20,384 bases of DNA, taken from a virus. Position 1 is the first letter of the stretch; each line of letters begins with the position of its first letter. Under the pieces are notes generated by a model that made no database searches, was not told the DNA's origin, and saw only the letters and a program-made list of their open reading frames with translations. Of the stretch, positions 887 to 13,416 are shown piece after piece. The position numbers were made by a program, and so were the translations under genes. The stretch spans positions 1 to 20,384 of IMG/VR virus record IMGVR_UViG_3300035698_009522. One strand, written 5' to 3'.

Positions 887-2695
887 TTAAATTCCATCTC
901 CATTATTCCAAAGTATGCTAACATCATATTCATTTAGGGTTCTACTAAATATACGTAATTGATCAAAAGCAGCTACGTCTCCTCCACCTGATCCAAAATG
1001 CAGGAATAAAGTTTCTGGAGTTCCTGATATTGAAGCATTAACATCTGTTGATCCTTGATAACTATTATTTATATAATAATATACTTTTTTATCAGCATCA
1101 TTAAATGTAACTACTATATGATTCCAATCAGCTAATTCCCAATTAGTCATAGTAATATTATCACCATCTCCATAATAAGTACAGCCTAATAAATTAGTAG
1201 TAGGAACTCCTGAAAGTCCTATATCAATAAAAGCAGGATATCCATCAGGATCGGTAATTCTAAATAATTTAATAGATCCAGATGTTCCTCTCTCTGCTTT
1301 TACCCATGAAGATATTGAGAAATCTTGGCCTTTTGATACTAATTGACTCCAAGGATAAGTTGAATTAGAAAGTCGTGCAATATCTGTAGGACAAGAAATT
1401 GCTTGATTTACTTTACCCGCAATATAACCTGGACTATTGATTTCAGTAAATGTATAGCCTCCAGCTGCTGATGTAACTGTATTATCAAATGTCCAAAATA
1501 AAGAAGGATCTAAATCAATTCCTATATAAGAAACATCGATTGTAAAATCAGCTAAATAAGTATTAGAGAAAGTAATAGTATCTGCTATATCAGCTGTTTG
1601 ATATATTGAAGTTGAAACTTTGACATTAATATTAGCTATTCCAGCACCTGAAGAAGGTTCTATTGTTAACCAACTTGGAGAAGAAGTAACTTCCCATTCA
1701 TTTAAAGTAATAGTATTCATAGAAACATCATAAGAAGATGCATCTAAATAAGTAGGACCATTGTCATAATCACCTGTGTATACTAATTCATCTGGACTTA
1801 CAGTTAATAAAATATTAAATGAAGCATCTACAGTAATAGTATAATAATAAGATGAATCTATATTAAACGATTCATATATAGAAGCTGGATCTAAAGAAGC
1901 TGTTAATAAAATAGATTCTGGTCCAGAACCTTCAGAAGTATCTAAAGTTATCCAACTTGGTATACCTGATACAGTCCAATTATTATCTGATGCAGTTGAC
2001 ACATCTAAATAAGTAGATACATTCAATGTGTCAAAAGTATAAACAGAAGAATCTGTACTTAAAGGTCTGATTGTAAAAGTAACTGGTATATTAATAGCTC
2101 CATAACTTGCAATATCAATTTGAATATCATCACTTTGATCTACAATTGGATCCGTATTTATTCCAACTGAAATATCAGTAGATACAGAACCAGCATCAGG
2201 ACTTAAATCTAACCAAGAAGGTTTAGTTATTGTCCATGTTGTACCAGAGGATAAGAATAATTCTTGAGTATATTGTCTGTCATGTACGGTAAAATTATAT
2301 AAGCTTGGATCAACACCTGCTACTATTCTATCAAAATCAACAACAAGTGAATCTAATAATTTAAAAGTATCTTCTGCAATTACGAATTGTTCTGATTTTA
2401 AAGTATCATAAGCTATTACTTGATATAAGTAATCACCTGCATCTAATTCATTAGTTTTATAAGGATATATTGGAAACTTTATTCTTCCTTCACCAGGATA
2501 TTTCTCACTAAATAATGGTCCAACTGAAACATCTACATTTGCAGATGAAGTAAGTGGATACTTCTTTGCATAAAGCCAATAGTCATAGCCATCAATTATA
2601 TCACCAACCGAACCTGAAGCATCAATTACATAAAAATTTACATATTGAGTCTTTCCTTTATAAAGTATTATTCTATTATCTTGTTGTCGAGCCAT
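887..2695 (-). CDS. Tail protein: BppU-like head, three BACON domains, LamG end
   Basis: This is a 602-aa modular adhesin. Residues 1-119 form a beta domain with YWLYAKKYPL and ELDAGDYLYQVIAYD, which may correspond to the N-terminal attachment domain of baseplate upper proteins; the next gene is a stand-alone copy of it. Three BACON domains follow (about 131-209, 216-299 and 302-391), each with the hallmark W-x-[VI]...PSW[LI]x[LI]...G pattern: PSWLDLSPDAG (159-169), PSWITLDTSEGSG (246-258) and PSWLTIEPSSGAG (340-352). The C-terminus (about 396-602) is a LamG-like jelly roll with FSISSWVKA, LADWNHIVVTFNDADKKVYYYIN and FDQLRIFSRTLNEYDVSILWNNG. BACON and LamG modules are associated with glycan or mucin binding, so surface-glycan attachment is likely. 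About 15 D-x-S motifs. Confidence 0.85.
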   Translation of the reverse strand: MARQQDNRIILYKGKTQYVNFYVIDASGSVGDIIDGYDYWLYAKKYPLTSSANVDVSVGPLFSEKYPGEGRIKFPIYPYKTNELDAGDYLYQVIAYDTLKSEQFVIAEDTFKLLDSLVVDFDRIVAGVDPSLYNFTVHDRQYTQELFLSSGTTWTITKPSWLDLSPDAGSVSTDISVGINTDPIVDQSDDIQIDIASYGAINIPVTFTIRPLSTDSSVYTFDTLNVSTYLDVSTASDNNWTVSGIPSWITLDTSEGSGPESILLTASLDPASIYESFNIDSSYYYTITVDASFNILLTVSPDELVYTGDYDNGPTYLDASSYDVSMNTITLNEWEVTSSPSWLTIEPSSGAGIANINVKVSTSIYQTADIADTITFSNTYLADFTIDVSYIGIDLDPSLFWTFDNTVTSAAGGYTFTEINSPGYIAGKVNQAISCPTDIARLSNSTYPWSQLVSKGQDFSISSWVKAERGTSGSIKLFRITDPDGYPAFIDIGLSGVPTTNLLGCTYYGDGDNITMTNWELADWNHIVVTFNDADKKVYYYINNSYQGSTDVNASISGTPETLFLHFGSGGGDVAAFDQLRIFSRTLNEYDVSILWNNGDGI

Positions 2696-2709
2696 TGTAT
2701 TACTTATTT

Positions 2710-3459
2710 TTAAACACCTTCACCTGAGTTATAAAGAGTACTTCTTTCTGTTGCATCTAAAGCTTTAGAATAGAAATAAAGTAAATCTAATTCTCCATTT
2801 GTTGACCATGTGGTTCCACCTATATCTCCCATAAATCCTACATTAGTACTTGTTGCATAACTTGGAGAAGCTGCTGATATTCTTTCAGCTGTATCTATAT
2901 AAAGCTTAATATTAGTTCCATCATCAATTATTTGATATAAATGCCAAGCACTGTCGCGAAAATCCGAAGCATAATATCCAAGAACACCAGCTCCATAATA
3001 AAGAAATGGACCTCCAGCAATTGATCCAGGAGGTGTATATGAAGCTCCTCCAATTCCCAATATCAAATTATTGTCGAAACTCATCGGTTTTTGATAATCC
3101 GCAGATGCATTTGTAAGCTTTAACCAAAAAGATATACTAAAATTAGTTTCGTTTGGAATTGCATAAACAGATGAATCTGTATCATTATAGATAGTTTTAC
3201 CTGTAGCAGTTGTTGTAGTTGAATTAGTTTTAAAGTCTTCATCTATAAGTCCAGTACCATAAACCCATGATATTGAACCATCAGTATCCCAAGCATTATT
3301 AGTACCGTAAGTATCATTTAATGATGAGTCAAAACCATATCTTGAAATAAGAGAATCTGTTGGATATGAATCTGGTATATCTGCAACATTACCTGTTCTG
3401 ATATAACCATCATTCCAAGTTAATAATGTATTATTATATTTTATAATTTTCTCTTGCAT
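2710..3459 (-). CDS. LamG-like tail adhesin (copy 2)
   Basis: This 249-aa paralogue of the preceding gene has the same N-terminal pattern (EKIIKYNNTLLTWNDGYI) and the same hinge, PTDSLISRYGFDSSLNDTYG, aligned with PTDHLLSRWQVEDDLTDSYG in copy 1. The jelly roll has NFSISFWLKLTN, DSAWHLYQIIDDGTNIKLYIDT and the closing LDLLYFYSKALDATERSTLYNSGEGV. The protein cores have diverged more than the ends, as expected for duplicated receptor-binding proteins under diversifying selection; this is an inference. Gaps to both neighbours are under 15 bases, so it is part of the same operon. Confidence 0.78.
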   Translation of the reverse strand: MQEKIIKYNNTLLTWNDGYIRTGNVADIPDSYPTDSLISRYGFDSSLNDTYGTNNAWDTDGSISWVYGTGLIDEDFKTNSTTTTATGKTIYNDTDSSVYAIPNETNFSISFWLKLTNASADYQKPMSFDNNLILGIGGASYTPPGSIAGGPFLYYGAGVLGYYASDFRDSAWHLYQIIDDGTNIKLYIDTAERISAASPSYATSTNVGFMGDIGGTTWSTNGELDLLYFYSKALDATERSTLYNSGEGV

Positions 3460-3472
3460 AATTTAATTAATT

Positions 3473-4195
3473 TTAAATACCTGAGCCTGAGTTATATAGC
3501 TGACTTATTTCGCTTACACTGAGCTTTTTATCATATAAATATACTTGATCCATATATCCTATTGTGTTACCCCAAGATCCATTTGAATCTAATATATAAA
3601 AACTATCAGCAGCATTACTATATGTTGTTGCATAAGTTCCAATTGAAACATTATCTACGTATAAGAATAGATTATTTCCATCATATCCTCCAACAACATG
3701 ATGCCAATTTCCATCAGTCATATCAGTTGTAGTAAATACTTTAACTTCTACTCCTCCAGCCCATAATCCAAATGCTCCATTTGTAGTACCTGGAAAATAA
3801 GTATATGCAACTGCAAATATAATACCACCCATTTCTAATGTTCTGGTATAAGCTGTTGTTGTATATTTCCACCAAGAAGATACAGTAAAAGCATGTCTTG
3901 TATTTACGGCAGCTCTTATAGATGCATTAGTTGTATAACCTCCTGCTCCTCCAACATATTGAGTAATAGCTTTACCTACTTTTCCAGTAGCATAAACTTG
4001 TGTAGCTACTGTACCAGTTAAATCATAAGCTCCATAACTATCAGTTAAATCATCTTCCACCTGCCAACGAGATAATAAATGATCTGTTGGAAATGAAGGA
4101 CCAGCTACAGGAATAAAAGGTTCAGGAGCTATTAAATAATTGTCTCCCCACCTTTGTAGCTTATCACCTTGTCTTATTATTTTCGTCTTTGCCAT
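3473..4195 (-). CDS. LamG-like tail adhesin (copy 1)
   Basis: This 240-aa protein has a short basic N-terminal segment (KIIRQGDKLQRWGDNYL) that probably anchors it to the tail, then a LamG/concanavalin-like jelly roll from about residue 40. Typical features: HAFTVSSWWKYTT (family 'ftvsaWvk'), DGNWHHVVGGYDGNNLFLYVDN (family 'dgnWHhva~tydg~~~~lYvDG') and IGYMDQVYLYDKKLSVSEISQLYNSG at the end (family '~iDevriynraLs~~Ei~~Ly~~g'). It is clearly paralogous to the next gene. LamG modules often bind glycans, so a receptor-binding role is plausible. Unlike its neighbours it has essentially no D-x-S motifs. Confidence 0.78.
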   Translation of the reverse strand: MAKTKIIRQGDKLQRWGDNYLIAPEPFIPVAGPSFPTDHLLSRWQVEDDLTDSYGAYDLTGTVATQVYATGKVGKAITQYVGGAGGYTTNASIRAAVNTRHAFTVSSWWKYTTTAYTRTLEMGGIIFAVAYTYFPGTTNGAFGLWAGGVEVKVFTTTDMTDGNWHHVVGGYDGNNLFLYVDNVSIGTYATTYSNAADSFYILDSNGSWGNTIGYMDQVYLYDKKLSVSEISQLYNSGSGI

Positions 4196-4198
4196 ATC

Positions 4199-5998
4199 TT
4201 AATATCCATTTTCAAATAATAATCTTCCCCATGTGTTTGTTGAATTACAAACATATAAATAAGAAGCATCTAAAATCCAATCTCCAACATTACCAGAAGC
4301 ATCACTATCAACTCCAGTAGAATCATATGTTATTTTCGATTGTATGTAATTACTCGCATCAACTATATCGTATAATGAAGCATCTACTAAAGTCTTATTA
4401 ATCCATAAATCATTAGTGTCATCCCAAGCAAGTGATTGATTCTCCACTACACTTGTTAAGCTTACGTCGTTTAAAATCCAAAAATAATCACTTGCATCAA
4501 CTACAGAATATAATGAAACATCGACTAAAGTCTTATTCATATACGTTGAACCATCAGTATCATAAGCAAGTACTTGATCGTTTGTCTCTCCTCCTATTGA
4601 AGTATCAGTTAAACCAGTTAATGTAGTAGAACCTCCTCCGCCTCCAGCTGCTATAGAAGCATCCTGAATAGCTTGATATTCCCAGATAGTATTTATTGAG
4701 GCATCAAATAATGTTTGAGTAATATCTCCAGTAACAGCGTCAATAGAAGCATCCTGAATAACGTTATAATCCCATAAAGCACCTATAGAATTATCGAATA
4801 CACTTTGGGAAATATCTCCGCCTGCTCCTCCTGCAACACTTACATCTAAAGCTCCAGCAACCCAAAATAATCCACTACCAATACTTGCTTCTTTAACAAA
4901 GGTTCCATCTGCTATAGTATTTTCTTTAGTTGAATCTAAAGAAAGAATTGAAGTATCTAAGTTAGTAATATCAGTATCATTAGATTGTATTGCTAAATCT
5001 AAAACTCCTAAAGAAGTATCAATATTAGTTATATCAGTATCATTTGATTGTATTGCTAAATCAAGCACGCCTACCGAAGTATCTAAGTTACCTATATCTG
5101 TTACATTAGTAGCTATATCAGTATCATTAGATTGGATTAAAGTATCCAAAGAAGCCACTGAAGTGTCTAAATTATCTAATCTTGTATCTCTTGTTGCTAA
5201 AGATCCATCTACATAAGCAAAAGTAACATCATTTTCCTCGAAAGTTTTTATTGAAGCATCTTGAATAATTCTATAACTATCTAACCAAGAAATACTAACA
5301 TCATTAGCACTTATATTATCTTCATTTGTTTGAATTAACGTATCTAAAACCCCAATAGAAGTTTCTAAATATCCAATATCAGTTACATTAGTAGTTATAT
5401 CAGTATCATTTGATTGTATTGCTAAATCTAAAACTCCTACTGAAGTATCTAAGTTAGCTATATCAGTATCATTAGATTGAATAGCTAAGTCTAAAACTCC
5501 TAAAGAAGTATCGATATTAGTAATATCTGTATCATTAGATTGAATAGCTAAGTCTAAAACTCCTAAAGAAGTATCGATATTAGTTATATCAGTATCATTT
5601 GATTGTATTGCTAAGTCAAGTACACCTACTGAAGTATCTAAGTTAGTTATATCTAATATATTATCAACTATTAAAAGACTTAATTCTCCTAATGATGTAT
5701 CGATATTAGTTACACTTGTAGTTAATCCTCCTATAGAAGTATCTAATATTTGGGTAAGTATATCAAGATTTGAAACTGAAGCATCTATATTGAATAATTC
5801 TAAATCAATACTTGCTAAAGAAGTATCTATATTTATGATTGCTAATGAATTAGCATTAATCGAAGTATCTCTTTCTGCAAGGGATCCGTCTACATATATT
5901 TTAGTAGTATATTGAGATCCACTTAATGTGACAGCTACATCAGCTATCCATCCATATACTGAACTATCAAATACTCTTCCACTAATTCTTTGTGACAT
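4199..5998 (-). CDS. Long coiled-coil tail fibre with 21-residue repeats
   Basis: This 599-aa fibre has a short N-terminal domain (1-40) and then a shaft of heptad-like sequence (about 40-355). The core repeat, N-[IL]-D-T-S-[LV]-G-V-L-D-L-A-I-Q-S-N-D-T-D-I-T, is exactly 21 residues (three heptads). It occurs eight times in two blocks (119-230 and 277-346), and two copies carry a 7-residue insertion TNVTDIG that keeps the register. A beta/glycine-rich distal part follows, with VIQDASI-type repeats, a Gly5 linker and LVDVSLY/LVDASLY repeats. The C-terminus DASYLYVCNSTNTWGRLLF resembles fibre-end domains. It has about 32 D-x-S tripeptides, the highest density in the window. The likely role is receptor contact or its scaffold. 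Confidence 0.75.
   Translation of the reverse strand: MSQRISGRVFDSSVYGWIADVAVTLSGSQYTTKIYVDGSLAERDTSINANSLAIINIDTSLASIDLELFNIDASVSNLDILTQILDTSIGGLTTSVTNIDTSLGELSLLIVDNILDITNLDTSVGVLDLAIQSNDTDITNIDTSLGVLDLAIQSNDTDITNIDTSLGVLDLAIQSNDTDIANLDTSVGVLDLAIQSNDTDITTNVTDIGYLETSIGVLDTLIQTNEDNISANDVSISWLDSYRIIQDASIKTFEENDVTFAYVDGSLATRDTRLDNLDTSVASLDTLIQSNDTDIATNVTDIGNLDTSVGVLDLAIQSNDTDITNIDTSLGVLDLAIQSNDTDITNLDTSILSLDSTKENTIADGTFVKEASIGSGLFWVAGALDVSVAGGAGGDISQSVFDNSIGALWDYNVIQDASIDAVTGDITQTLFDASINTIWEYQAIQDASIAAGGGGGSTTLTGLTDTSIGGETNDQVLAYDTDGSTYMNKTLVDVSLYSVVDASDYFWILNDVSLTSVVENQSLAWDDTNDLWINKTLVDASLYDIVDASNYIQSKITYDSTGVDSDASGNVGDWILDASYLYVCNSTNTWGRLLFENGY
4961..5644 (-). repeat. 63-bp direct repeats encoding the fibre shaft
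   Basis: Two blocks (5309-5644 and 4961-5170) hold eight degenerate 63-bp units. Two adjacent units share a 56-base exact match (5466-5521 and 5529-5584). Other copies differ mainly at third codon positions. The two blocks are separated by a segment that repeats the YVDGSLA[ET]RDT sequence seen near the protein's N-terminus, which suggests an older, larger duplication. Confidence 0.85.
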
Positions 5999-10139: not shown

Positions 10140-12161
10140 TTAAAATGTTTCAGATAAAGTTAATTCCTTATTTAATATACCAACTAATTGTTCACCTTCA
10201 ATGATAAATTTGACATTACCACTTCCTGTAGTACCAAGCAATTGTTTTAACTTATCCAATGGTGCTATGACTTCCGGATTGGTTCTTGCACCAGAATATT
10301 CGCCGATTAAAGCATTTACCGGACCTGACACCACTCCGCCCTCAGAAAAAGATGCACTTGAAATAGCTGCTATTTGAGCTGCTCCTGCCGCTCCAGCTAA
10401 AACTGCGGCTATTAAACCCATCGGTATAAATGGTGTAGTTTGTAAAGCATTAACAACTGCCAATGCTGTACCTATAATTGCTTGAACATAAGCTATTTTC
10501 TTCTGTTTAGCAGCATATTTTTTCTCAATTTCAGCCTTCTTTTTAGCGTTATTTCCAGCTGCAGCAAGCTCTTTATTCTTAGAAGCTTCATAAAATGTTG
10601 AAATAGTGTCCGTTAATGACATCATAGCATCAGCATAAGCTTGTTGATTCTCTTGTTTTAATGCCATATTCTCATCCTCAGTAGCTTTAAGTTGCTCTTG
10701 AGCAGCTATTTCAGCTTCTAATCTCTTCTGAGCCCAATCCTGAGTGATTGCAGTCTTCCTCATTTCATATTCTTGATGCAATATAAGACCTTCATCTAAT
10801 GCACCTTTAAGATTAGCAAGTTGACCAGCTTCAGTTTGTTCGTTTAAATTAGCTTTATAGTTAGATAAGGATTGTTCAGCTGCTCGAGTCATTGATACTT
10901 TATTAGCAATAGCTTCTTCTTCAGCTTTTTTAAGTTCTGCTAACCTCTTTATTTCTGCTGTAGCTGCTGCTTGAGTCATATTGATATTCTCTATACCAAC
11001 TGCTCGAATAGTACCCATTATTTCTTCTTCTCTATTGGCTATTTCTCTGGTTTTATCAGCTCTTTCCTTATAAAGTCCTTGTAAAGTAGCATAAAGTGCA
11101 GCTTCTGCTTCTAAATCATCTACTGAAGACTCTGAAGCTGCATTAGTTTCTTGTTGTATTGATAAGGCTTCTTCAGCCATTGCTATTTTCTTAGCTGATA
11201 ACCCAGTTTCTAATTTGGTAGCTTGTTGAGTAGCTAATAATCTCTCTTTTAATGTTGATTTCTCTTTATCAGATGAAGTAAAGATAAGATCCGCTATTTG
11301 ACGTCTTGCATCAGCTTCAGATTTGGTTAAACCAATGGTATCTAATCTAAGTTGGAAGGTTCTTTCTTCTAATTTTTGATGAATCTTAGCTATTTCATTC
11401 ATTTTGGCCATAGCAGCAGATCCACGATTGACGATATCTTTAACATCCATACCAGTTGCCATCTTCACCGCAGCTTTCCCTACTTCGACCATGTTTTTCT
11501 TCATTTCATCGAAGTATTTAGCAGCTTCAGCCTTAGCATCTGAGTCAAATATACCTTTTATGGCTTGACCAAGTGCTTTAAATCCATTCTTTAAGAAATT
11601 GAATGAAGCTTTAAAGAATTCTATAAGTCCTTGCCATCTATTAACTAAGTTTTTCTTAATTGAATCCCATAAATCTGAAATTGCTTGTTTTGGATTCTCA
11701 AATGCCCATGACATCCAACGTCCTAATGAAATAAATGCATCTTGTACAACAGATAAAAGTCCTTTAAGATAACCCATTATAGAAGCAAACTTTCCAGCAC
11801 CATCCACACTACCTTTGAAGTAAGAAGTCAGAGCTTTGACAGCAAGTGCAATAGCTCCTACTATCAATCCAATTGGACCAAGTGCTACGTTTAATAATGT
11901 AGCTCCCATTGCCATTGACTTAAATCCGCCTAAAGCAGCTGAACCAGCAGGTCCCATACTTCCCATAGATGCAGAAATCTGAGACATTGCACCTCCTGCA
12001 TTCTTACTCATACCTTTAAAACTCTTTGAAGAAGATTTATCAGCTTTTGCAATACTTTTAGAATAACCTTTTATAGTTTTCTTACTGGATTCTACACCTT
12101 TATTTAAATCAGCACTATTTGCTCTTAGTCTAAGAACAAGATCCGCCATTATATTTGCCAT
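10140..12161 (-). CDS. Tape measure protein
   Basis: This 673-aa protein sets tail length and is probably ejected with the DNA. Seen: a Lys/Ser-rich N-terminal helical segment (about 10-55), a long hydrophobic Gly/Ala-rich stretch (about 79-112, LGPIGLIVGAIALAV), then charged coiled-coil-rich helices (about 250-560) and a second hydrophobic Ala-rich region. The C-terminus FSEGGVVSGPVNALIGE, followed by NPEVIAPLDKLKQLLG, is the common tape-measure ending. At about 0.15 nm per residue the tail would be roughly 100 nm; that ratio is general knowledge, not measured here. It almost lacks the D-x-S motif that fills the distal tail proteins. Confidence 0.92.
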   Translation of the reverse strand: MANIMADLVLRLRANSADLNKGVESSKKTIKGYSKSIAKADKSSSKSFKGMSKNAGGAMSQISASMGSMGPAGSAALGGFKSMAMGATLLNVALGPIGLIVGAIALAVKALTSYFKGSVDGAGKFASIMGYLKGLLSVVQDAFISLGRWMSWAFENPKQAISDLWDSIKKNLVNRWQGLIEFFKASFNFLKNGFKALGQAIKGIFDSDAKAEAAKYFDEMKKNMVEVGKAAVKMATGMDVKDIVNRGSAAMAKMNEIAKIHQKLEERTFQLRLDTIGLTKSEADARRQIADLIFTSSDKEKSTLKERLLATQQATKLETGLSAKKIAMAEEALSIQQETNAASESSVDDLEAEAALYATLQGLYKERADKTREIANREEEIMGTIRAVGIENINMTQAAATAEIKRLAELKKAEEEAIANKVSMTRAAEQSLSNYKANLNEQTEAGQLANLKGALDEGLILHQEYEMRKTAITQDWAQKRLEAEIAAQEQLKATEDENMALKQENQQAYADAMMSLTDTISTFYEASKNKELAAAGNNAKKKAEIEKKYAAKQKKIAYVQAIIGTALAVVNALQTTPFIPMGLIAAVLAGAAGAAQIAAISSASFSEGGVVSGPVNALIGEYSGARTNPEVIAPLDKLKQLLGTTGSGNVKFIIEGEQLVGILNKELTLSETF

Positions 12162-12175
12162 AATAAGTCTTTATT

Positions 12176-12903
12176 TTATGTTCTATTTATCTTGCTTTCT
12201 AAGACATCCATCTTGACCGACTTAGACTTTCTAATTGCCTTTTTATTAAGCCTTTTATACCAATCATCTGCTTTCATAGTACCATCAATTTGTTCCTGAG
12301 TAATTTGATTAGGACTTTCATCATCTTCGATAGGAAATACATCTTTCTTGAATTTAGGCCAGGAGATAACATTCTTTCTGGTTCTATTTGAATTAAATAA
12401 GATATATGTTTGAAGACGAGTACGTAGTAGATCAGCTTTAAGTTTAGAAGTTTCTTCATTAAGCCAAAAATACAAAACACCTTCTAATTCTCTTGGAGTA
12501 AATTCCAGAAATTTAGAAGGTGTAATATGAAGTCGAGAGGATGCTACTATAAATATATCCTCAATAGTTTCTAATTTTTTTTTGGTTCGCCTTTATCTGC
12601 TTGTTGTTTGAAAGCTTCTTGTTGGATGTCTATTAGGGACTTAGCAAATCCAAACATTATTTTTTGAAAATCTAAATAACATTCATCTAATATCCAAACT
12701 GAATCTTCTTTCTTTAAAGTTAATTCCTGATCTGCCATTTTAGCACCAGCAATAAGAGCATACCACATTATTGAAGACTGTGCTTCAAAGTTAGTATCAA
12801 GCTCTTCCATTGTAACTCCAGCTTCTTTTTGAGCCATCATTAATACATAATAAGAAATCCTTATTGGGTATTTCTCACCTTTGTAAGTTATAAATTCTAT
12901 CAT
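12176..12903 (-). CDS. Tail assembly chaperone GT fusion (-1 frameshift product)
   Basis: The shifted product joins 109 residues of G to 133 residues read in the -1 frame (12577 down to 12179), giving 242 aa. The part before the first possible start (TTG at 12475) is open and conserved-looking. It contains SRLHITPSKFLEFTPREL and GVLYFWLNEET, which resemble the 'pseFw.ltprEl..ll.gy' motif of T-type tail chaperone domains; in lambda the T domain recruits the tube protein. An independent start would lose this motif, so production by frameshift is the better reading. The C-terminus is basic (LNKKAIRKSKSVK). Confidence 0.82.
12571..12903 (-). CDS. Tail assembly chaperone, G-type (unshifted product)
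   Basis: This 110-aa protein begins with a beta hairpin (IEFITYKGEKYPIRISYYVL) followed by helices (AQKEAGVTMEELD, SIMWYALIAGAKMA), the layout of gpG-like chaperones that coat the tape measure during tail assembly. It ends GEPKKN. The last codons contain the A-run at which a fraction of ribosomes would shift into the -1 frame to give the longer GT product. It lies between the tube and tape-measure genes, as in lambda and most siphoviruses. Confidence 0.85.
   Translation of the reverse strand: MIEFITYKGEKYPIRISYYVLMMAQKEAGVTMEELDTNFEAQSSIMWYALIAGAKMADQELTLKKEDSVWILDECYLDFQKIMFGFAKSLIDIQQEAFKQQADKGEPKKN
12577..12583 (-). promoter_or_regulatory. Programmed -1 frameshift site (A AAA AAA)
   Basis: A run of nine A (12583-12575 on the minus strand) covers the heptamer A_AAA_AAA in the correct phase after codon CCA, two codons before the TAG of the G frame. 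Slipping back one base continues as AAA TTA GAA ACT with no stop for 133 codons. A possible stimulatory hairpin lies downstream: GAGGAT (12562-12557) pairs with ATCCTC (12542-12537) around a 14-base loop. Its 14-base spacer is longer than usual. Confidence 0.85.
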
Positions 12904-12990: not shown

Positions 12991-13416
12991 TTATCCAGTT
13001 GTCAAGGATTCTAATGCTCCAGTTCCTGCTATCTCTCCTGAGAATGATACTGCACTTCCAACTCCACCATCAAGTGATAAAGATGTTAAGTAACCAGTTC
13101 CTCCGTAATAGTCATTTAATGAAACGTCAGGCACTATATAAACTCCAATTGAAGTATCTAATCCTAATAAATTATCCATAAGATCATAAAAGGAAGCTGC
13201 TCCAGCATCTATAGTAGTGTTTGTCATTACAAGTCCTGAGAATGATACGGAATATCCATAAAGATCAGGTACATTTTGTTTAGCTCCGCCTGTAGCGTTT
13301 AAACAAGCTATTTCTATCATATCCTTTGATACAGAAAGAGAAAAATCAGTTGCGCAACCTATAATGGAACCGTCAATTGTTATCGACATTTGTTTGCTAA
13401 ATAATGGTGTTGCCAT
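12991..13416 (-). CDS. Major tail (tube) protein, TP901-1-like
   Basis: This 141-aa subunit should form the stacked hexamer rings of the tail tube. The N-terminus LFSKQMSITIDGSIIGCATD and SKDMIEIACLN fit the 'vllkidg..vaga~~~tls...e~id~t' opening of the TP901-1-type tube family. The segment GYSVSFSGLVMTN and the terminal SAVSFSGEIAGTGAL are two strands that repeat the 'sfsGe~~g~g' motif of this fold. It contains two D-x-S tripeptides in an apparent loop (DTSIG and DVSLN) plus a DGS near the N-terminus. The gene is followed by a terminator and then the tail chaperone. Confidence 0.88.
   Translation of the reverse strand: MATPLFSKQMSITIDGSIIGCATDFSLSVSKDMIEIACLNATGGAKQNVPDLYGYSVSFSGLVMTNTTIDAGAASFYDLMDNLLGLDTSIGVYIVPDVSLNDYYGGTGYLTSLSLDGGVGSAVSFSGEIAGTGALESLTTG

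Follow-up and report, generated by a model that had tools for sequence, protein, structure and literature searches.

The window, the whole stretch of DNA analyzed here, comprises 20,384 nucleotides, positions 1 to 20,384 of the IMG/VR virus record IMGVR_UViG_3300035698_009522. Two overlapping reading frames, G and T, lie between a tail tube gene and a tape measure gene. The features of this region are as follows.

12991..13416, minus strand: tail tube protein, the neighbor upstream of G (phrog_1407 major tail protein, E 1.8e-16)
12571..12903, minus strand: G, an ATG open reading frame (ORF) for a predicted tail assembly chaperone of 110 aa with the C terminus GEPKKN
12575..12583, minus strand: run of nine A's (A9), the proposed slippage site, with an in-phase A_AAA_AAA at 12583-12577
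12176..12583, minus strand: T in the -1 frame, run included (KKKLETIED...), with 132 residues beyond three lysines
12537..12562, minus strand: weak 6-bp hairpin GAGGAT/ATCCTC (12562-12557 with 12542-12537), 12 nt past the run
12477..12523, minus strand: strong hairpin within T, centered on conserved T-P codons, 51 nt past the run
10140..12161, minus strand: tape measure protein, the neighbor downstream of T (phrog_3336, E 5.9e-12)

G begins with the ATG at 12903, and its 3' end reads CCA AAA AAA AAT TAG, the TAG ending at 12571. A first-pass annotation of the same DNA had placed an in-phase A_AAA_AAA two codons before this stop, and the heptamer was found at 12583-12577. The -1 frame reads KKKLETIEDIFIVASSRLHITPSKFLEFTPREL... 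and runs to a stop codon at 12178-12176; its reported 133 open codons were confirmed with the end of the run as the starting point. The motif FLEFTPREL had been said to lie ahead of any start, and indeed the first ATG, GTG, or TTG in this frame is a TTG at 12475, past the motif. The predicted fusion has the expected length of 242 aa and reads ...PKKKLETIED across the junction. On both strands together, the window contains a single A9, and its presence alone is not unusual because dinucleotide shuffles average 1.84 A9 per window. It is in its place and in its conservation among relatives that the A9 is beyond chance, and a chance origin was set aside on the strength of these two properties.

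The order of tail tube, G, T, and tape measure, with G and T overlapping, is the classic order of tail genes. The window's own G and T matched no Pfam or PHROG family, and a Pfam search with relatives of G returned only weak, unrelated names. Fourteen of the 15 aligned T proteins (all except that of the window) matched phrog_16333, whose function is unknown. The same family also matched T of Cellulophaga phage phi18:1, T of Bacteroides phage F4, and the T part of L143, a relative in which G and T form one natural ORF in a single frame (2698-3324), an A8 run separating the two parts. The AlphaFold model of G had a pLDDT of 92, and its best match in BFVD was a "Tail assembly chaperone protein" (E 7.4e-5), the sole match at E<=0.001; a fold search of the same model against the PDB gave no match at this threshold. 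The model of T was weaker (pLDDT 78), with the T protein of phi18:2 as its best match (E 0.045). In the record of Cellulophaga phage phi39:1, structural proteins flagged by mass spectrometry (MS) flank G and T, which are themselves unflagged, a hint that would fit chaperones absent from the finished particle. The first-pass reading of a G/GT tail assembly chaperone pair therefore holds up on gene order, the overlap, a T without an early start, T homologues in Cellulophaga and Bacteroides phages, the fusion in L143, and the fold of G. This assignment is well supported, about as surely as sequence allows.

The named relatives are phages of Cellulophaga, Flavobacterium, Croceibacter, and Bacteroides, so that Bacteroidota is the likely host phylum, and the window probably derives from a siphovirus-like phage of this phylum. 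A scan of genome contigs with the tail tube protein gave no confirmed match, tblastn of named phages with one G and with the tail tube protein gave no match, and neither did an initial T scan of viral contigs. Among the other putative tail proteins of the window, inspected by eye, three encoded at 887-5998 (minus strand) have similar C termini (LWNNGDGI, LYNSGEGV, and LYNSGSGI), and the one at 4199-5998 (minus strand) contains repeats of the type NIDTSLGVLDLAIQSNDTDI.

Relatives of the window (the window clade) were assembled by searches with the tail tube protein and G, and a separate T-protein search used patterns drawn from the T core, not from the A-run. The junction in the window clade is mostly NNT AAA AAA AAA TAR, with the A9 beginning at codon position 1. 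Among the best 80 of the 89 loci confirmed by the T-protein search, exactly A9 was present in 70; the remainder comprised 8 loci reading CCA AAA GCG TAA with a canonical C_CCA_AAA, 1 with A8 (the fused L143), and 1 cut by the contig start. In total, 117 junction loci were collected (104 A9, 8 CCCAAAA, 3 A8, 1 A10, and 1 A18). Clustering at 80% T identity reduced these to 57 lineages, 55 with an A-run and 2 with CCCAAAA. The first-pass annotation had pointed to related phages as a check on the slippage site, and there exactly nine A's were kept by the cluster representatives of 52 of the 55 A-run lineages. The exceptions were L041 (A8G), L046 (A18), and L143 (A8). The Cellulophaga cluster was scored by its A9 representative and also contains the A10 of phi17:1. 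Not included in the counts were L019 and L044, whose contigs end before the junction, and L147, whose run is cut by the contig start, while L077 and the five distant relatives L060 and L064-L067 stand outside the 57 lineages. In L004, T is cut off by the contig end, and its -1 reading starts KKIETIEEVFVVAA.

The run keeps its length in all three codon phases. A9 occupies phase 1 in 24 lineages (19 of the window clade, 4 of the Bacteroides type, and Flavobacterium phage 11b), phase 2 in 21 lineages, all of the Bacteroides type, and phase 3 in 7 lineages (the window, L018, four of the Bacteroides type, and Cellulophaga). These phase counts use a manual reading of L132; G of L132/L133, L077, and L099 was also set by reading. 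How many A's an in-phase A_AAA_AAA requires depends on the phase of the run: nine for phase 1, eight for phase 2, and seven for phase 3. Since nine A's are found in every phase, a property of the run itself is indicated. With a fixed heptamer and free flanks, exactly nine A's would be expected in 13-18% of cases; no P value is attached to the conservation because the lineages share ancestry and hence are not independent. G+C content varies widely, from 31.7% in the window to 48-53% in L070-L072. Relative to L029, L004, L014, L037, and L005, the window's A9 is shifted by one base and its length is still nine, as if a T had changed to A at one end and an A to T at the other.

T lies in the -1 frame in nearly every lineage, the exceptions being L046 and the Cellulophaga phages. 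Bacteroides phages F1, F2, and F4 and Flavobacterium phage 11b carry A9 at the junction. As deposited, Cellulophaga phages phi18:1, phi18:2, phi12:1, and phi12:3 have A9 with T in +1, phi17:1 has A10 with T in -1, and phi39:1 has A8 with T in +1 (manual reading). These six Cellulophaga phages represent a single host species and one sampling area. The 18-A run of L046 (3832-3849) may be misassembled; as it stands, T lies in +1 after the run and is thus out of reach of a -1 ribosomal shift. A C_CCA_AAA replaces the A-run in L095-L101 and L103, Bacteroides-type relatives that form two sister lineages, a natural swap of site type at the same junction. In three distant relatives (L064, L065, and L067), the run is short and its end reads A_AAA_AAG. 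Judging from these comparisons, most of this T family appears to be arranged with A9, and a few lineages with a classical ribosomal heptamer instead. In Croceibacter phage P2559Y, an A10 (L073:3030-3039) occurs within the single ORF of gene 0014, and the tape measure gene follows directly. Here, slippage would yield a shorter product, possibly a mirror image of the window case.

Long A-runs are scarce elsewhere in the regions analyzed. Expected run numbers were taken from a first-order Markov model of the coding strand of lineage representatives, with the junction excluded. In the window clade, 0 runs of at least nine A's were found off the junction in 174,557 nt (23 loci), versus about 19 expected, and in 30 Bacteroides-type and two CCCAAAA loci, 0 were found in 168,784 nt, versus about 2.9 expected. 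Runs of eight A's off the junction numbered 4 and 0 in these two sets, versus 27.1 and 6.9 expected. In an earlier count of 37 loci (260,971 nt, including near-duplicates and five distant relatives), all 30 runs of at least nine A's were at the junction. Within genes, A7 occurred at about half the codon-shuffle expectation per phase (9 versus 15.5, 6 versus 13.3, and 9 versus 19.7). As the three phases are depleted alike, the avoidance of long A-runs does not track the reading frame. Depletion also extends to in-frame A_AAA_AAA and A_AAA_AAG (25 found versus 67.7 expected), which a ribosomal cost would predict too. Alternatively, long A-runs may be purged for mutational reasons.

According to the review by Atkins and colleagues (PMC5009743), nine A's or T's are a site of efficient slippage by bacterial RNA polymerase in vivo, the RNA:DNA hybrid of the Thermus enzyme spans 9-10 bp, and Thermus dnaX transcripts acquire one or more extra A's. 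In the mechanism proposed here, most of the product would end at the G stop and a minority would pass into T in the -1 frame to give the 242-aa GT. By the lambda analogy, this fusion would connect the tape measure with subunits of the tail tube. The frame change would arise mainly at transcription. RNA polymerase, whose RNA:DNA hybrid of 9-10 bp is about as long as the nine-base tract, would slip there and insert one A in part of the mRNAs, and ordinary translation of these would produce GT. Ribosomal -1 slippage at A_AAA_AAA may contribute too. One extra A in the transcript leads into the T frame as observed and to the identical 242-aa protein. For this reason, the -1 frame of T fits insertion-biased polymerase slippage as well as it fits the ribosome, and a peptide across KKKLETIED cannot separate the two mechanisms.

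The folding of the RNA around the run was also considered. The hairpin GAGGAT/ATCCTC, which the first-pass annotation had described, does exist (-6.1 kcal/mol) and is weak, with a z of -2.6 and 5 of 200 shuffles folding equally well. In 18 window-clade sequences aligned in the same register, all six pairs form in 2 (the window and L002) and five pairs in 3 more, and the hairpin was consequently rejected as a conserved stimulator. A far stabler hairpin, at 12523-12477 (-22.6 kcal/mol, z -6.7), escaped that annotation; none of 200 shuffles equaled it in stability. Of 22 window-clade lineages, 10 reach a folding energy of -15 kcal/mol or lower in this region. In a comparison of six sequences, two-sided changes affect 6 of the 19 pairs of the strong hairpin, and none of 500 shuffles reached the covariation score, in a test that favors the hairpin because the structure was taken from the window itself. 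The score drops when the arms are slid, and two of the six sequences pair one base out of register. A second window-clade subgroup of seven sequences supports the hairpin less strongly: 2 of 12 predicted pairs have changed on both sides and the covariation term is unfavorable. The usual stimulator of -1 frameshifting lies 5-9 nt downstream, and the strong hairpin, at 51 nt from the run, is beyond this spacing. It may act in mRNA decay, in ribosome queuing, or in something else; as a downstream RNA feature, it would weigh somewhat for a ribosomal mechanism.

Across the A-run lineages, the 60 nt past the run are slightly more folded, with a mean z of -0.81 (n=54), versus 0.03 in control windows (n=162). 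At +4 to +49, the mean z is -1.5 in the window clade (22 lineages) and -0.36 in the Bacteroides type (30 lineages); at +50 to +95, it is -3.0 and -0.31, respectively. The signal belongs to the window clade, and the scarcity of structure in the Bacteroides type speaks for the polymerase. Compared with protein-preserving recodings (P<=0.02), exceptional folding at +50 to +98 was seen for 10 lineages of the window clade (of 22) and 1 of the Bacteroides type (of 30); at +4 to +49, the numbers were 2 and 1, respectively. For the two CCCAAAA lineages, folding was exceptional at +4 to +49 in L103 and at +50 to +98 in L095. No clear upstream stem-loop of the kind that stimulates polymerase slippage was seen upstream of the run in the lineages folded. 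A terminator scan of the region flagged a single site, which precedes G, and left the hairpin in T unflagged. Between the tail tube stop and the G start, at 12964-12944 (minus strand), a terminator-like GGGAAGAACTAAGTTCTTCCC is followed by TTTTTGTATA. It could leave G, T, and the genes behind them less transcribed than the tail tube gene; such sites numbered 1 found versus 1.9 expected in shuffles.

G/GT is a textbook example of ribosomal frameshifting in phages, and programmed -1 ribosomal frameshifting at A_AAA_AAA, aided in the window clade by downstream structure and with the extra A's adding slipperiness, is the main rival to polymerase slippage. The in-phase heptamer two codons short of the G stop and a T frame of -1 in nearly all lineages are what this reading predicts, and the window-clade structure in both intervals speaks for it. 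The same structure counts against the polymerase, since RNA that has not yet been copied cannot act on it. In addition, every A9 contains one in-phase A_AAA_AAA, and the C_CCA_AAA of the two sister lineages (in L103 with strong structure directly behind it) and the A_AAA_AAG of the three distant relatives show that ribosomal sites work at this junction, which argues against the polymerase reading. The lambda precedent, as given in PMC5009743, is also ribosomal. However, this reading leaves unexplained why exactly nine A's are kept in phases 2 and 3, where fewer would do, and why longer runs are lacking among the 52 lineages; the heptamer alone fails to account for A9 conservation in three phases. 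The structure offers limited help, as the proximal part beats recodings in just the three lineages noted above (two window clade and one Bacteroides type) and the strong hairpin lies past the usual spacing. We therefore regard a ribosomal explanation as possible but rather doubtful. The -1 frameshift that the first-pass annotation called clear is not clear as a ribosomal mechanism: exactly nine A's, kept by relatives in any phase, point at least as much to polymerase slippage. A homopolymer of about nine A's or T's with conserved length, one mark of programmed transcriptional slippage, is what the junction contains. On balance, we lean toward GT being made chiefly through transcriptional slippage at A9, the better-supported mechanism; a mixture of polymerase and ribosomal slippage is also possible. 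The argument that opposite shift directions (phi18:1, phi18:2, phi12:1, and phi12:3 versus phi17:1) prove polymerase slippage was not relied on, because a homopolymer read one base too short would account for all the +1 cases, with T truly in -1.

T might instead be a separate gene with its own start, the overlap being incidental. GenBank records do list T as a separate hypothetical protein, and 38 of 56 lineages have some ATG, GTG, or TTG between the run and the core motif. Nevertheless, the remaining 18, the window included, have none, and the start positions disagree among the 38. Homologues with a conserved start of their own for T, which the first-pass annotation had named as counterevidence, were thus not encountered. 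Even Cellulophaga phages that share an identical T (100% over 102 aa) have different annotated starts, L143 has one fused ORF, and the A9 is located right at the G/T overlap, so that a separate T is very unlikely. Run length might also vary in the DNA itself through replication slippage, with phages switching between G and GT, as the A9 and A10 of the Cellulophaga relatives could suggest. That difference may be a sequencing error, however, and A9 is present in 70 of the best 80 of the 89 T-search loci. Tail assembly moreover requires G and GT in one cell, as described for lambda in PMC5009743, and this last reading is the least credible of all, close to negligible.

Several known systems resemble the proposed one in part. 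As in lambda gpG/gpGT (PMC5009743), the gene order is kept, the chaperone frames overlap, and a minor -1 fusion would be made between the tail tube and the tape measure; unlike in lambda, where the site is a ribosomal heptamer, the conserved feature here is the A9 tract. As in dnaX of Thermus thermophilus (same source), a nine-base homopolymer at which the polymerase adds residues would give two products, here by inference; the unslipped dnaX message yields the long product, whereas here the slipped message would. Cellulophaga phages phi18:1, phi12:1, and phi17:1, Bacteroides phages F1/F2/F4, and Flavobacterium phage 11b share with the window the T homologue, the tail tube and tape measure flanks, and A9 (A10 in phi17:1), but their T is annotated as a separate hypothetical gene and their G sequences are strongly divergent. 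L064, L065, L067, L095-L101, and L103 share the gene order and the -1 T frame but, unlike the window, have short canonical ribosomal heptamers and no A9. In PMC3711429, a chaperone cluster is described as similar to an HK97 protein, and frameshifting of 6% and 7% is given for two genes. A full-text literature search, with subscription papers mostly outside its scope, returned no recognized report of a phage tail chaperone made by polymerase slippage or of a frameshifted G/GT in Bacteroidota phages, which is not proof of novelty.

Homologues of dnaX differ in whether the polymerase or the ribosome does the slipping, and we slightly favor regarding the A9 phages as the phage counterpart of dnaX. 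By a similarly narrow preference, siphovirus-like Bacteroidota phages would set their G:GT ratio by polymerase slippage on an A9 of fixed length and not by ribosomal frameshifting. The A9 and C_CCA_AAA sister lineages offer a natural comparison of one problem solved by two machines. The A9 rule simplifies the annotation of GT where the records of named phages show two hypothetical proteins. If the reading is true, tools that look only for heptamers misread the G/GT fusion of the whole group, and the ratio of two assembly proteins would be fixed at transcription, via the RNA polymerase of the host.
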